IMG/VR virus record: IMGVR_UViG_3300024308_000189
Span: 1 to 23,650 of that record
Source of the DNA: a virus
Length of the DNA: 23,650 nt
Reading direction: 5' to 3' (one strand)
Shown: positions 1 through 18,715 of the stretch, in pieces
Numbering within the stretch: the first letter of the stretch is position 1
Layout of the letters: each line of letters opens with the position of its first letter
Position numbers and translations under genes: made by a program
Notes under the pieces: generated by a model
Told to the model about the DNA's origin: nothing
The model's input: only the letters and a program-made list of their open reading frames with translations
The model's database searches: none

Positions 1-877
1 TGAGCACGTGCTTGGCGAACTGGTCCAGCGCGTCCAGGTAGACGTTGGCGAAGAACTGGCTGGACAGGTTGCCGATCGGCAGGCCACGCCCGGCCGGGGC
101 GTTGGCCAGCCGCTTGTGCCGCGGCACCTGCGCCTGCTCGGCAGCAGTGGCCCGGTACTGGACACCAGCGTGTAGCGGCGAACGGCGCAGCAGTGCATGG
201 GTGGCCTGTTGGACGACCAGCGGTACGGCACGGCGCCGCAGGCGAGTGCGCAGCATCCGCCACAGGGTAGCCCGGTGGATGCTGTTGAAGAAATTGGCCA
301 CGTCGAGCTGCAGATACCAGCCACCACCCTGGCCGCTGTGCACCTGGCGCACGAACTGCTGGGCCCTGCGTACGGCCGCATGGCTGCCGCGGCCCTTGCG
401 GTTGGCGTAGCTGTCGTGGATGAACGTCGGCTCCCACAGCGCTTCCAGCTGCGGCACCAGCCAGTGGTGCACGACGCGGTCGGCGAAGTCCGGCGCATGG
501 ATCTCGCGAGCCTTCGGGCGGGTTGCCACGAAGCACGTCGAGGGCCGTGGCTCCCAGCGGCCGGCCAGCAGCTCGCGCTGCAGCTGCAGCAGGCCGTCGG
601 CCCAGCGATGGTCGAATCGCAGCTGGTTGAAGCTCGGAACCTTCTGGCGGCGCGCACGCCGCCATGCCTGGTACAACTCCTGCAGGCCTACCTCTCCCTG
701 AAACTCACCGGCACGACGCACGGCCAACGCGAACCCGTTGTTGTTGCGGTGGTTGTTGTTGACGTTGCCGTTGTTGAAATTGACGTTCCACGCGGACGCC
801 GAGGACCAGGCGGCCGCCTCCCCATACACTTGCGACCAGGCCGCGCAGCCCGGATGCGGATAGCGCGGGTTCGTCAT
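1..877 (-). CDS. DGR reverse transcriptase with in-frame TR extension (3' end outside window)
   Basis: This is an RNA-directed DNA polymerase of the diversity-generating retroelement class, which copies TR RNA into adenine-mutagenised cDNA for transfer to the VRs. The minus frame is open for 292 codons from ATG 877 to the window edge. Residues 25-56 are encoded by the TR. The RT domain starts near residue 65. Visible blocks are the motif around TRPKAREIHAPDFADRVVHH (119-138), motif A YLQLDVANFFNSI (188-200, catalytic Asp192), and GLPIGNLSSQFFANVYLDALD (265-285). The IGNLSSQ form is typical of DGR RTs, where many other RTs have QG...SP. The YxDD box should lie just beyond base 1. ATG 877 overlaps the avd stop (ATGA), so translation is probably coupled. 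No other in-frame ATG occurs before the palm domain. A GTG or TTG start after the TR cannot be excluded. Confidence 0.93.
   Translation of the reverse strand, partial: MTNPRYPHPGCAAWSQVYGEAAAWSSASAWNVNFNNGNVNNNHRNNNGFALAVRRAGEFQGEVGLQELYQAWRRARRQKVPSFNQLRFDHRWADGLLQLQRELLAGRWEPRPSTCFVATRPKAREIHAPDFADRVVHHWLVPQLEALWEPTFIHDSYANRKGRGSHAAVRRAQQFVRQVHSGQGGGWYLQLDVANFFNSIHRATLWRMLRTRLRRRAVPLVVQQATHALLRRSPLHAGVQYRATAAEQAQVPRHKRLANAPAGRGLPIGNLSSQFFANVYLDALDQFAKHVL
703..816 (-). repeat. DGR template repeat (TR)
   Basis: This is the template copy of a 114-base repeat that recurs at 1346-1459 and 1804-1913 on the same strand. Read on the minus strand it is unusually rich in AAC: ten AAC codons occur in the RT reading frame at residues 31, 35, 36, 38, 40-42 and 45-47. 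AAC-rich templates are the DGR hallmark, since adenine mutagenesis gives many amino acids but never a stop codon. The conserved 3' part, GCCGTGCGTCGTGCCGGT, would act as the initiation-of-mutagenic-homing signal. The base that follows is G here but C in both VRs, which fits the IMH*/IMH distinction. The TR lies between avd and the RT domain. Confidence 0.95.
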
Positions 878-1317
878 GAGTTGGCCCCCGCAAGGGCGGT
901 ACGGGTACTCAGTTTCTTGCCGCGCTGCGCGACGCCATCGGCTTGCGCATTCTGGGCATGGGAGACTTCGCGCAGGCGGCGGCGCCAGCCGCCGGCCTGC
1001 ATGCCCAGCTCTTCGGCCAGGCGGATAAGCATTTCAAACTGGCGGAAGCTGGCGAAGGCGCCAACCCTTTTGCCGATCTGCAGGAGCTGCTTGAGAGCAT
1101 CGATATCCCGCACCAGCACCGCCACCCACCGCGCCTGCTCGGCGCGCTCACGCCAGGCATTGTTGGCGTTGATGAACACCAACTGGGAACGCGCGCGCAG
1201 GTCGCTGCCGATCTGGTAGCGATGGTAGCGAGCGAACCGGCGCACGGCGTTCTCGATCTCGACCGCCATGTGTTCGGCGGTCTTGATGATGGGTGGGGGC
1301 TGGAATCGGGAGGTCAT
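874..1317 (-). CDS. avd: Avd-like DGR accessory variability protein
   Basis: This is a 147-residue basic protein without signal peptide or membrane segment, predicted to be helical. It matches the Avd (four-helix-bundle) type in size, in the pattern of amphipathic helices across residues 10-115 and in position. In the Bordetella phage DGR, Avd forms a pentamer that binds the RT and is needed for cDNA synthesis. The start at ATG 1317 is preceded by GAGG at a suitable distance. The gene sits 26 bases downstream of target gene 1 and its TGA overlaps the ATG of the TR-RT frame by four bases. The assignment rests on context and fold pattern and has no catalytic motif behind it, but the setting between a target and an RT makes it strong. 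Confidence 0.85.
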   Translation of the reverse strand: MTSRFQPPPIIKTAEHMAVEIENAVRRFARYHRYQIGSDLRARSQLVFINANNAWRERAEQARWVAVLVRDIDALKQLLQIGKRVGAFASFRQFEMLIRLAEELGMQAGGWRRRLREVSHAQNAQADGVAQRGKKLSTRTALAGANS

Positions 1318-1343: not shown

Positions 1344-1769
1344 TCACTGACCGGCACGACGCACGGCCAACGCGAACCCGTCGAGGCTGCGGTGGAGGTA
1401 GCCGACGCCGCCGCCGTAGAAATTGACGTACCACGCGGACGCCGAGGACCAGGCGGCCGGGGTCTTCGACCAGTACCAGTCGTTCTGGATGTCCTTGAAG
1501 AAGTCCGTGTTGATGGCCGGCGAGTAGCGGCTGCTGTCGATCAGCAGCTGATATTCCTCGATGGTCGGCAGATCCCAGTCGGTGTGGCCGAGCAGGTCCA
1601 GGGCCTTGGCGGCGGCCTCGCACTCGGCGTGCGGAACGTCGCTGTCCACGATGTTGGTGGCGGTGAAGGTCAGGCCGTAGTCGGGCAGCAGCACGGCGAC
1701 GTGGTCGGTGGCAGTGTCCGCCAGCTCGGAACCGTCGGCGGCGATCTTCTTGAACGTGATGGGGCTCAT
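1344..1769 (-). CDS. DGR target protein 1, DUF1566/Lcl-like with C-terminal VR
   Basis: The product has 141 residues. The ATG at 1769 is chosen because GGAG lies six bases upstream; the same frame runs further upstream but has no ribosome site there. Residues about 21-141 form one domain resembling DUF1566 (Lcl C-terminal), a family with a C-type-lectin-like fold that is used as a DGR target. Features are TDHVAVLLPDYGLTF, a DWDLPTIEEYQLLID segment, YWSKTPAAWSSASAW, and the end GFALAVRRAGQ. The variable positions fall at about residues 114-130. No signal peptide, transmembrane segment or collagen-like or coiled-coil shaft is seen, so it does not look like a whole tail fibre. It is a shorter paralogue of the next gene upstream. 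The ligand is unknown. Confidence 0.88.
   Translation of the reverse strand: MSPITFKKIAADGSELADTATDHVAVLLPDYGLTFTATNIVDSDVPHAECEAAAKALDLLGHTDWDLPTIEEYQLLIDSSRYSPAINTDFFKDIQNDWYWSKTPAAWSSASAWYVNFYGGGVGYLHRSLDGFALAVRRAGQ
1346..1459 (-). repeat. DGR variable repeat 1 (VR1)
   Basis: This is the 3' end of target gene 1, aligned base for base with the TR at an offset of 643. I count 15 substitutions in the diversified part, all at positions that are adenine on the template's coding strand. The flanking non-adenine positions are identical. All ten TR AAC codons are changed, giving Y, Y, G, G, G, Y, L, S, L and D in order. Outside the core the repeat ends at the CAG-TGA of the target gene, where the TR has GAG-TTT. 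Confidence 0.96.
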
Positions 1770-1801: not shown

Positions 1802-2350
1802 TTACTGACCGGCACGACGCACGGCCAACGCGAACCCGTCGTAGTCGCGGTGGCCGTCGTCGACGCTGCCGTAGCTGAAATTGACGCCCCACGCGGACGC
1901 CGAGGACCAGGCGCAAGGCGTGCTGGTCCAGTGCCAGCGGGGCAGCACGCCGGGGAACAGAGAGGGATCGATGGCCGGCTCATGGCGGGTGTCATCGACC
2001 AGAGCGGCCAGTTCGGAGCGAGTTGGCATACCCCAGTCGTCGTAGCCCAGCAGGCGCAGCTCGCTGCAAGCCTTCTCGCAGTCGGCTTGGCTCATCGGGT
2101 CACCATCGCTGTCGCCGATGGACTTGACCGCCCACATGAGGCCGGTGGCGTGGTCGATCACCGCGACGTGGTCGGTGCGCGGGTCGCTGCCGGCAGCGCT
2201 GGTGCCATCGGCGAACAGCTTCGTGTGGCCGACGGCGTACCGGTGGATGGACTGATCGTCATCGAGCTCGATCAGATGACCGGGGCGGAGGGTTTCGCTG
2301 GAGATGAAGATCTCCGCTTCGCCCTTGGTGCGGATGGTGATGGCGTTCAT
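1802..2350 (-). CDS. DGR target protein 2, DUF1566/Lcl-like with C-terminal VR
   Basis: The product has 182 residues and starts at ATG 2350, after an AAGGA ribosome site. The N-terminal half (about 1-58) includes a stretch rich in beta-prone residues and an acidic ELDDDQ segment that target 1 lacks. Residues 59-182 repeat the target 1 domain: TDHVAVIDHATGLMW, GYDDWGMPTRSELAALVDD, WHWTSTPCAWSSASAW and the invariant end GFALAVRRAGQ. Variable residues lie at about 155-171. No export signal is visible. It lies 32 bases upstream of target 1 in the same operon and 39 bases downstream of a phage gene of unknown function. Whether it is a virion, surface or cytoplasmic binding protein cannot be told from the sequence. 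Confidence 0.88.
   Translation of the reverse strand: MNAITIRTKGEAEIFISSETLRPGHLIELDDDQSIHRYAVGHTKLFADGTSAAGSDPRTDHVAVIDHATGLMWAVKSIGDSDGDPMSQADCEKACSELRLLGYDDWGMPTRSELAALVDDTRHEPAIDPSLFPGVLPRWHWTSTPCAWSSASAWGVNFSYGSVDDGHRDYDGFALAVRRAGQ
1804..1913 (-). repeat. DGR variable repeat 2 (VR2)
   Basis: This is the 3' end of target gene 2, aligned with the TR at an offset of 1101. I count 12 substitutions, all at template adenines. All ten AAC codons are altered, giving G, S, Y, S, D, D, G, D, Y and D in order. VR2 differs from VR1 at nine of the ten codons, so the two genes were diversified separately and not copied from each other. Identity with the TR ends four bases earlier at the 5' side than for VR1. 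Confidence 0.96.
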
Positions 2351-3517: not shown

Positions 3518-4006
3518 TCAGTCGATTTCATGGACTGCCACGCGCTCTGCATAGCTGCCGTGGCTGGCCGCGTGACGGCTCATCAGCGGACGAAGCGGGG
3601 TGTGGCCCAGCACCTCGATGTGCCCGCCCGCTGCGAGGGAGGCGTCCAGGTCGTCGGCCAACTGCTGCCGGTCCAGTTCCCGGTGACGGATCGTGGTCGC
3701 GGCGTCACTGACGCCGGTGAGCAGGCCAACCGCGCAGGTCGGCTGCGCCCGGGCAGGTGCCGCGCGCAGCGGCGCGATCGCATGTTGCGTGTGGCTGGAT
3801 AGGCGCCAGATCCCGCGCACGCCGGAGCGATGGCAGATAGCCTGGCCGCTGCGTGCCAACCCCTTCAGCGTGTAGCCGATAGCCTGGTGGGTGCTGTTGA
3901 TGCGGCCAGCGGTCTTGATCTGTTCGACCGTTGCGCCTTGCGGGAACATGGACAGGACCTTGCGCACTTCGGCGGCTCGGCCGATCTGTTGCGGGCGGGC
4001 GCTCAT
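3518..4006 (-). CDS. Putative winged-helix DNA-binding phage protein
   Basis: The product has 162 residues. About residues 8-68 read as a winged-helix or HTH domain: RAAEVRKVLSMFPQGATVEQIKTAG, then HQAIGYTLKGLARSGQAI as the recognition-type helix, then HRSGVRGIWRLSS as a wing. The C-terminal part is Ala/Arg/His-rich with no named domain. A role in regulating or assisting replication of the phage is an inference from the fold alone. The start ATG 4006 overlaps the upstream TGA by four bases. There are seven bases between this stop and the next gene's start. Confidence 0.65.
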   Translation of the reverse strand: MSARPQQIGRAAEVRKVLSMFPQGATVEQIKTAGRINSTHQAIGYTLKGLARSGQAICHRSGVRGIWRLSSHTQHAIAPLRAAPARAQPTCAVGLLTGVSDAATTIRHRELDRQQLADDLDASLAAGGHIEVLGHTPLRPLMSRHAASHGSYAERVAVHEID

Positions 4007-16489: not shown

Positions 16490-18715
16490 ATGCGTGCACG
16501 TCTGTTGGCCAGCGCGATCCAGAACACCATCCGCGCGGACGCGGCAACCGAAGCCGAGCTTGGCCCGGCCCTGTATCAGGTCCGGGCAGAGGCCGATGTC
16601 GCCGACGTGATGATCTATGGCGCCATCGGTGGCTACCTGTTCGAAGAGTCGGTTTCCGCTGCAGACCTGGTCGAGCGGATCGGCCAGATCACGGCCGGCA
16701 CCATTCATGTGCGGCTGAATAGTGTCGGTGGTGTTGTCGCCGATGGCATGGCAATCCACAACGCGCTGCAGGCCCATCCGGCACACAAGATCGTCACCGT
16801 GGAGGGGCAGGCCGCATCCATCGCCTCGCTGATCCTGCAGGCTGGCGATGAGCGCCGGGTCTATGCCAGCTCCCTGGTCATGGTTCATGCGCCACGTACC
16901 GTGGCTGCCGGCAGCGCTACCGCATTCCGTCAGAACGCAGAGGCGCTGGACGCGCACGCGGCGGCAATGCTGGAGGCCTATGCAGCCCGCTCCGGCCGGC
17001 GTGAAGAGATGGAGCGACTGCTTACCGACGACGCCGACCATTGGTTCTCCGGTCCGCAGGCCGTCGATGCCGGTCTGGCCGATCTGGTGGTGGACGCCGA
17101 CCCCGGTGCCACGGCCATGTGGACGTCGGCATCTACCGTCGCCATCAGCGGCTATTTGCAGTCCATCGAGGGGGCTGGCGCGCCAGTTCTTGCCCAGCTG
17201 CGCCGCAGCATCGTCGCCAGCCTCTCTCCGCAAGTATTCGCCTCGCTTCCCGAGGTCAGTCAGTCGGCCGTGATCGGCCATATCGAGGATCCAACAATGA
17301 AGAAGCAGTACAGCGCCATCCTCGCGAACGCCGGTCGACAGAGCCCGGCAGTCGCAACCACCGCTGCCACGCCAGCCACCCCGGTCGTCGCTGCGGCTCC
17401 CGCTCCAGCGCCGGCCGCGGGCGATCCGGTCCAGGCCGCTCTGGGTGCATTGCGTGAGCGCAATACCCAGATTCAGGCTATCGCGCTGCCCCACATGGGC
17501 AACGCGCAGGTCCGTGAGTACGTGGATGGCGTGATCGCGCAGGCGGACTCCAACATCACCGCCGATGCGGTGGGCCGCCACATCCTGGCACTGTTGGGCA
17601 GCAATGCCGCTCCGCTCAACGGCGGTTCGGGCGTCGTCGCAGGCGCTGATCAGCGTGATCTGAGCCGCGCAGCCATGTCCAACGCAATCCAGGCCCGCGC
17701 CGGCCTGGTTCAGGCAACGGATGGTAACCCCTTCCGTGGCATGTCCATGACCGAGATCGCCCGAGCCTGCGTGCAGCAGGCCGGTGTGGACACCCGTGGT
17801 ATGGAGCGCCTGGAAGTGGTCGGTATGGCGTTCACCCACAGCAGCTCGGACTTCCCGCAGCTGCTGGGCGACGCCTCGCGCCGGGCGCTGCTGCAAGGCT
17901 ACCAGGAGGTTGAAGAAACCTTCGACCAGTACACCCGAGCGGTGAACGTGGGTGATTTCAAGCCGACCAACTTGGTCGGACTGGGCGCATTCTCGGATCT
18001 GGACATTGTTCCGGAGGGTGGCGAGTACAAGCAGGGCTCGTTCTCTGAGCAGTCGCAGGCCATGAAGATCGTGACCTACGGCAAGCTGTTCACCATCACC
18101 CGCCAGGCCATCATTAACGACGACTTGGGAGTGTTCGGCGACGTGCCGCGCAAGATGGGCCAGGCTGCACGCCGCACGCTCGCGAAGGCGGTGTTCGACC
18201 TCATCAACAGCAACCCGATCCTGGCTGACGGCAAGCGCCTGTTCCACGCTGACCACAAGAACCTGCTGCCTGCCGCGCTGATCAGCACTGCCAGCGTAGG
18301 CGCGATGCAGGCTGCGATGCGCCTGCAGAAGGATGCTGACGGCAATCTCATCCAGGTGCCGATGCGCGGTCTGTTGACGCCGGTGGCGCTGAGTGGCCTG
18401 GCAAAAACCGTGCGCACCGCCCAGTTCGCCGTGGGGGCGGGCGTTGGCAGCAACGACCCCAACATCGTGCGCGAAACCTTCGAAGTCTGGGATGACGGGC
18501 GTCTGGACGCCAAGGATGCACAGGCCTGGTACGGCATCTCCAACCCCGCCTACGTAGACGGGATCGTGGTGGGCTACCTCGACGGCAACCAGACGCCGTA
18601 TCTGGAGCAGCACCAGGGCTTCACCGTCGACGGCGTGTCCTGGAAGGTGCGCTTGGATGCGGCGCCGGCCATTGCGGACTACCGCGGCATCTACAAGAAC
18701 CCGGGTAACCCCTGA
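16490..18715 (+). CDS. Prohead protease/major capsid fusion protein
   Basis: The 741-residue protein fuses a ClpP-like head-maturation protease (about 35-205) to a Mu gpT-like major capsid protein (about 410-741). Protease signs are VRLNSVGGVVADGMAIHNAL (75-93, GG loop), GQAASIAS (106-113, likely nucleophile Ser110) and LVMVHAPR (129-136, likely His133), then EAVxxGLxD-like GPQAVDAGLADLV (188-200). The linker (about 285-320) is Ala/Pro-rich. An internal ATG at 17297 (M270, MKKQYSAI) follows GAGG by eight bases and could start a separate scaffold/capsid product. The main start, ATG 16490, has TAGGAG upstream. Self-cleavage should release mature capsid subunits. Confidence 0.9.
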   Translation: MRARLLASAIQNTIRADAATEAELGPALYQVRAEADVADVMIYGAIGGYLFEESVSAADLVERIGQITAGTIHVRLNSVGGVVADGMAIHNALQAHPAHKIVTVEGQAASIASLILQAGDERRVYASSLVMVHAPRTVAAGSATAFRQNAEALDAHAAAMLEAYAARSGRREEMERLLTDDADHWFSGPQAVDAGLADLVVDADPGATAMWTSASTVAISGYLQSIEGAGAPVLAQLRRSIVASLSPQVFASLPEVSQSAVIGHIEDPTMKKQYSAILANAGRQSPAVATTAATPATPVVAAAPAPAPAAGDPVQAALGALRERNTQIQAIALPHMGNAQVREYVDGVIAQADSNITADAVGRHILALLGSNAAPLNGGSGVVAGADQRDLSRAAMSNAIQARAGLVQATDGNPFRGMSMTEIARACVQQAGVDTRGMERLEVVGMAFTHSSSDFPQLLGDASRRALLQGYQEVEETFDQYTRAVNVGDFKPTNLVGLGAFSDLDIVPEGGEYKQGSFSEQSQAMKIVTYGKLFTITRQAIINDDLGVFGDVPRKMGQAARRTLAKAVFDLINSNPILADGKRLFHADHKNLLPAALISTASVGAMQAAMRLQKDADGNLIQVPMRGLLTPVALSGLAKTVRTAQFAVGAGVGSNDPNIVRETFEVWDDGRLDAKDAQAWYGISNPAYVDGIVVGYLDGNQTPYLEQHQGFTVDGVSWKVRLDAAPAIADYRGIYKNPGNP
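17285..17299 (+). promoter_or_regulatory. Internal ribosome-binding site within the fusion gene
   Basis: GAGG at 17285-17288 is eight bases ahead of an in-frame ATG (17297-17299) at codon 270, just after the protease domain and before the Ala/Pro linker. In lambda the scaffold Nu3 is made from an internal start inside the protease gene C, so a similar product is plausible here. Confidence 0.5.

Follow-up and report, generated by a model that had tools for sequence, protein, structure and literature searches.

Template repeats (TRs) of diversity-generating retroelements (DGRs) are usually treated as non-coding. The cassette described here, in which the TR and the reverse transcriptase (RT) share one open reading frame, raises the question of whether the repeat is also translated as the N-terminus of the RT. 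The window is a whole virus contig of 23,650 bases, the left end of which cuts the RT gene, and its minus strand carries two target genes bearing variable repeats (VRs), avd and the RT ORF (Table 1). On sequence criteria this element is a phage DGR. TR/VR mismatches fall at TR adenines in 15/15 and 12/12 cases, giving a TR/VR pair with adenine-specific differences; the sole non-adenine mismatch, a G>C at TR position 706, is the expected IMH*/IMH difference. The RT belongs to the DGR clade (phmmer against 8ub7, E 4e-20), and the RT model of a relative, L023, matches the fold of the BPP-1 DGR RT 8ub7 (Z 32.0, model residues 61-426), with the folded part beginning near residue 61. Retrohoming we infer from VR divergence. 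Both targets have a stop codon directly after the repeat (CAG TGA and CAG TAA); the TR instead reads GAG TTT CAG and then runs on into the RT.

Table 1. Features of the DGR cassette, in coordinates of the virus contig.
Feature	Position	Strand	Basis or remark
RT ORF with N-terminal tail	2..877	-	292 codons to contig end, RT truncated; Pfam RVT_1
ATGA: RT start codon ATG 877-875 over avd stop TGA 876-874	874..877	-	sequence
avd (accessory variability determinant)	874..1317	-	Pfam bAvd E 8.9e-05, below curated cut-off; position and relatives agree
Template repeat (TR)	703..816	-	in RT frame, residues 21-59; TR/VR alignment
Target gene 1, containing VR1 1459-1346	1344..1769	-	start ATG 1769 read from sequence
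Target gene 2 (Lcl_C domain), containing VR2 1913-1804	1802..2350	-	Pfam, TR/VR alignment
RNA three-way junction, conserved	821..905	-	covariation; closes 5 nt before TR
Shine-Dalgarno-like GGGGGC, upstream of ATG 877	884..889	-	sequence
Second covarying hairpin, inside avd 3' coding region	919..957	-	window position inferred from L023

The preliminary description of this DNA had proposed that the minus frame runs without a stop from an ATG overlapping the avd stop, through the TR and into the RT. Both the open frame, which extends to the window edge, and the ATGA overlap were found as described; the frame does cross the whole TR, but the repeat is longer than the residues 25-56 given there. 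By itself, the open frame was rejected as evidence. Since a TR must be free of stops in the target frame, in-frame read-through in one GC-rich sequence is not unlikely (a chance of about 1 in 3 as to frame), and long open RT frames are seen in BPP-1-type loci too, the unused upstream part of the BPP-1 RT frame being open for 741 nt, through the TR. In sequence comparison it is the conservation across homologues, not openness, that exceeds chance.

To this end we gathered 21 genome loci, which include isolates of Stenotrophomonas, Xanthomonas, Pseudoxanthomonas, Arenimonas and Dyella, 77 virus loci and a set of further lineages. Among the 92 xanthomonad-type loci with an identifiable avd stop, in which any ATG within 10 nt of that stop was considered in whatever frame, 89 have an ATG in an open frame with the RT. 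This unfiltered count is the actual test, as the 76 unique loci in which the distance from ATG to RT was surveyed (19 values, from 144 to 228 nt) had been pre-selected as in-frame. The overlap is ATGA in 88 loci; in L095, where the usual ATG is lost, the avd stop lies further downstream and is overlapped by a new in-frame ATG (TGATG). The three exceptions are an outgroup (L016), a locus that contains Ns (L067) and a frameshifted metagenome contig (L097), the last two, with their broken ATG frames, counting against coupling. A Shine-Dalgarno-like tetramer precedes the ATG in 89 of 90 loci, compared with 18% of random windows, and the RT ORF of complete relatives is about 450 aa long. Also on the opposing side, ATGA overlaps are common in bacterial operons. 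The comparison with homologues backs three earlier suggestions, namely that the TR would be translated as the RT N-terminus, that the ATGA would tie RT translation to that of avd, and that one RNA may be both template and message. A parsimony analysis of length changes, anchored on the first Asn codon, was discarded as not a clean test, since the anchor is noisy.

Could the RT instead start at a GTG or TTG in the 3' portion of the TR or immediately downstream of it, the frame upstream being incidental to GC-rich DNA? Such codons are present in the window (TTG 727 and GTG 721 inside the TR, and TTG 676), many relatives likewise have an in-frame GTG or TTG inside the TR, and the BPP-1-type loci demonstrate that a long open RT frame can lie unused upstream. 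In almost all of these 61 control loci, however, an ATG precedes the RT domain by about 40 nt, the frame of the TR varies and stops separate TR from RT in 23; the window has no in-frame ATG between TR and RT and thus lacks the BPP-1-type start position. Moreover, the alternative start codons are not conserved in position. No ATG, GTG or TTG occurs from the TR core to the RT domain in L072 and L011, nor from the start of the TR to RT+20 in 29 of 70 loci of the Burkholderia phage Magia type, and in the Vibrio phage VP58.5, as in several loci of its type, no start codon exists other than the one in the ATGA. A late start would also leave unexplained both the avd-stop ATG found in 89 of 92 loci and a set of compensated frameshifts. 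We consider it very unlikely, though a start inside the TR keeps some probability for the window and for those relatives with a GTG or TTG there.

These frameshifts are found in L014, L118 and L129, in each of which an indel between the ATG and the TR is cancelled by a second indel between the TR and the RT, placing the TR in another frame while the path from ATG to RT stays open. With an RT start beyond the TR, nothing would have required the second indel to offset the first. Being neighbours in the tree, L118 and L129 may represent one event. Homologues with a frameshifted TR and an intact RT had been named beforehand as evidence against a translated TR; they do exist, but as each is compensated they support translation from the ATG and, at the same time, show that the TR peptide is dispensable. 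Clean separations of TR and RT occur chiefly in outgroups.

This dispensability bears on the idea that the TR-encoded tail is a functional peptide, whether a mimic of the targets or an arm binding Avd or RNA, and is selected as protein. There is weak purifying selection, with pN/pS at 0.65 upstream of the TR (bootstrap 0.46-0.99) and 0.49 in the linker; most of the RT lies at about 0.2 or below, apart from one stretch at 0.47. Yet the TR peptide is frameshifted not only in the three loci above but in the whole Magia lineage, where the +1 frame gives a threonine-rich tail, and the tail is predicted to be disordered in both structural models (residues 1-61 of L023, with a tail pLDDT of about 30, and residues 1-84 of the Magia-type L207). 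Furthermore, the conservation upstream of the TR is largely accounted for by an RNA junction that is also kept where the RT is unfused. The segment MTxPRYxxGCxAGSQV does look conserved, but because the RNA junction lies there; in this stretch synonymous change runs at about half the RT level. We regard a selected peptide as very unlikely. The tail, of about 60 residues, is weakly constrained and predicted to be disordered.

The RNA structure that occupies the interval from the 3' end of avd to the TR consists of the hairpin in avd and the three-way junction. Within the junction, P1 pairs 905-899 with 827-821, P2 pairs 897-893 with 888-884, engaging the Shine-Dalgarno sequence, and P3 begins at the G of the ATG. 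In an alignment of 31 loci, 96.5% of cells are paired and two-sided changes occur in 21 of the 31 pairs of the wider structure, including all 8 pairs of helices 1 and 2 of the avd hairpin (957-919); none of 500 shuffles was as good and slid controls reached at most 49%. A covariance model built from these loci, R1, matches the window at 924-809 with 107 bits, and also matches held-out members, the frameshifted loci included, and the outgroups L017, L021 and L016, with L020 matched weakly. Since it also occurs where the RT is unfused, the junction probably predates the fusion of TR and RT. No Rfam family was found in a scan of the window, RT-15 (RF03018) being unmatched even at E up to 1, and a search downstream of the TR for RNA structure (a possible Sp) gave no covariation. 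We also observed the heptamer ACTGAGT at 913-907 of the minus strand, which is invariant in avd and resembles the invariant GTGAGT at the 3' edge of the TR.

The same junction weighs against the suggestion that the TR region is what remains of a third target gene that became joined to the RT. The TR is indeed in the target frame and carries the C-terminal motif of the targets. However, the likeness to the targets goes no further than the TR border, what precedes the TR is the RNA junction that unfused relatives also possess, disorder is predicted for the tail, the TR frame differs in the Magia lineage, and in the outgroups a small ORF containing the TR stands between avd and RT. Given this combination, we judge a relic extremely unlikely. 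In detail, the unfused outgroups L016, L017 and L021 (INTERMEDIATES) carry this small ORF in relay. Its start shares nucleotides with the avd stop in L017 and L021, and its own stop in turn overlaps the RT start (ATGGTGA, GTGA), while in L016 the RT ATG lies 4 nt past the TR-ORF stop. Seven BPP-1-type loci (L292, L293, L297, L307, L315, L321 and L322) have a TR-containing ORF of about 100 codons with a stop that overlaps the RT ATG, and in L292 its start overlaps the avd stop as well; by sequence, the TR in these seven is a small gene of its own. The TR seems, then, to be translated in relay in outgroups and in fusion with the RT in the xanthomonad-type clade, the direction of change being our reading of the comparison.

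The preliminary description set this layout against the usual one, but it is not unique: overlap of the TR with the RT ORF is already DiGReF structural group 3, and two other lineages have the layout. Of the 36 unique loci of the Vibrio VP58.5/Pseudoalteromonas ACA1 type with a detected TR and RT identity above 52%, 35 carry an RT ORF that opens at the avd stop and encloses a TR read in the target frame. As in the window, the RT coding sequence of VP58.5 and ACA1 begins as ATGA with the TR inside it, but theirs is a distant RT lineage with another VR sequence; a long linker follows the TR, and hardly any space is left for a junction between the start codon and the TR. The exception in the group is Vibrio phage VHML, which has a stop between TR and RT and its own RT start at -39, which may reflect either a genuine loss or an old record with a sequencing error. 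This locus (L359), with the TR outside the RT frame and avd unannotated, differs from all its close relatives. In three loci with about 50% identity, L401-L403, the TR is likewise separate.

Some loci differ from VP58.5 within the TR. L363 shows three A>G changes and L366 one (3743-3850 in both loci), with nothing else in 270 nt, and L362 (325-432) shows 17 TR changes, nearly all at A. The pattern points to occasional overwriting of the TR itself by mutagenised cDNA, which would diversify the RT tail, although metagenome chimaeras are possible.

Loci of the Magia type have the TR inside the open RT frame in 70 of 70 cases, always shifted by one, and 47 of the 70 start within 10 nt of the avd stop; the GenBank CDS for the Magia RT already includes the TR. 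Like the window element, they have an RT ORF that begins near the avd stop and spans the TR, and an RNA, Rfam RT-15, abuts the TR in the corresponding place; they differ in the +1 frame of the repeat. RT-15 is typed as an sRNA gene; in Magia-type loci (L101:2709-2891 and L239:3670-3858) it extends over the beginning of the RT ORF and so is not purely intergenic.

Taken together, frame continuity, coupled starts, RNA structure with covariation and weak constraint on the tail lead us to favour coupled translation, perhaps with a switch between message and template, over a peptide function or a target-gene relic. Translation from the avd stop through the TR into the RT, together with the RNA-junction account, is in our view highly probable. 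The RT gene would begin at the avd stop codon and include the TR. Ribosomes finishing avd would open the junction that hides the RT Shine-Dalgarno sequence, restart at the overlapping ATG, cross the TR and go on into the RT, which would thereby gain its disordered tail. Selection would keep the path from avd stop to RT unbroken, the sequence of the tail being merely tolerated. When folded, the same RNA would offer Avd-RT a junction beside the TR, as a binding site, a cDNA end point or both. In BPP-1, reverse transcription has been reported to end at a motif in the 3' end of the avd mRNA (PMC12875486), and by analogy this would fit a role for the junction at the TR border.

As this element lies directly beside the TR and also hides the RT start, we propose that a single transcript would act as message or template, not as both at once. 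This competition, suggested by position and pairing, is much less certain than the rest of the explanation, and we offer it tentatively. Equally speculative is the switch that would follow from it, in which ribosomes on avd open the junction and RT is made, whereas the fold bound by Avd-RT hides the start and marks the 5' end of the TR, leaving the RNA as template; RT level and mutagenesis would be balanced on one RNA, and coding TRs, fused or in relay, might be a general regulatory design of several origins. The earlier proposal that RT synthesis is coupled to the supply of template is a good hypothesis.

How does this arrangement relate to known systems? The window element shares with the DGR of the Bordetella phage BPP-1 the order avd-TR-RT, adenine-only TR/VR differences and the RT fold. 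In contrast, the BPP-1 RT has its own ATG after the TR, whereas here the RT begins at the avd stop and takes in the TR, and in BPP-1 the Rfam Phage_DGR RNA is downstream of the TR, whereas the RNA structure detected here is upstream. A TR overlapping the 5' end of the RT ORF, as in the window, defines DiGReF group 3, catalogued in 2012, and that study concluded that the arrangement is irrelevant to mechanism (PMC3521204). The overlap is thus already known. Our literature search, which covered few subscription journals, returned no analysis of the frame, start or RNA structure of the overlap and no paper linking DGRs to 'translational coupling', and priority for such an analysis is uncertain. 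What appears to be new is the covarying three-way junction that abuts the TR, is predicted to pair the Shine-Dalgarno sequence and holds the start codon.

With the coding-TR layout conserved in about 190 related cassettes, the TR is probably not non-coding in these elements. Should RT synthesis require ribosomes to cross the template, use of the template would compete with RT synthesis on one RNA, and how DGRs balance RT expression against mutagenesis becomes directly testable. It would also follow that RT sequences in databases include template-encoded residues, and that TR designs for engineered DGRs in these lineages must keep the reading frame. Elsewhere in the window, the plus-strand ORF at 16490-18715 contains Clp-type protease and major capsid domains together, as a protease-capsid fusion.
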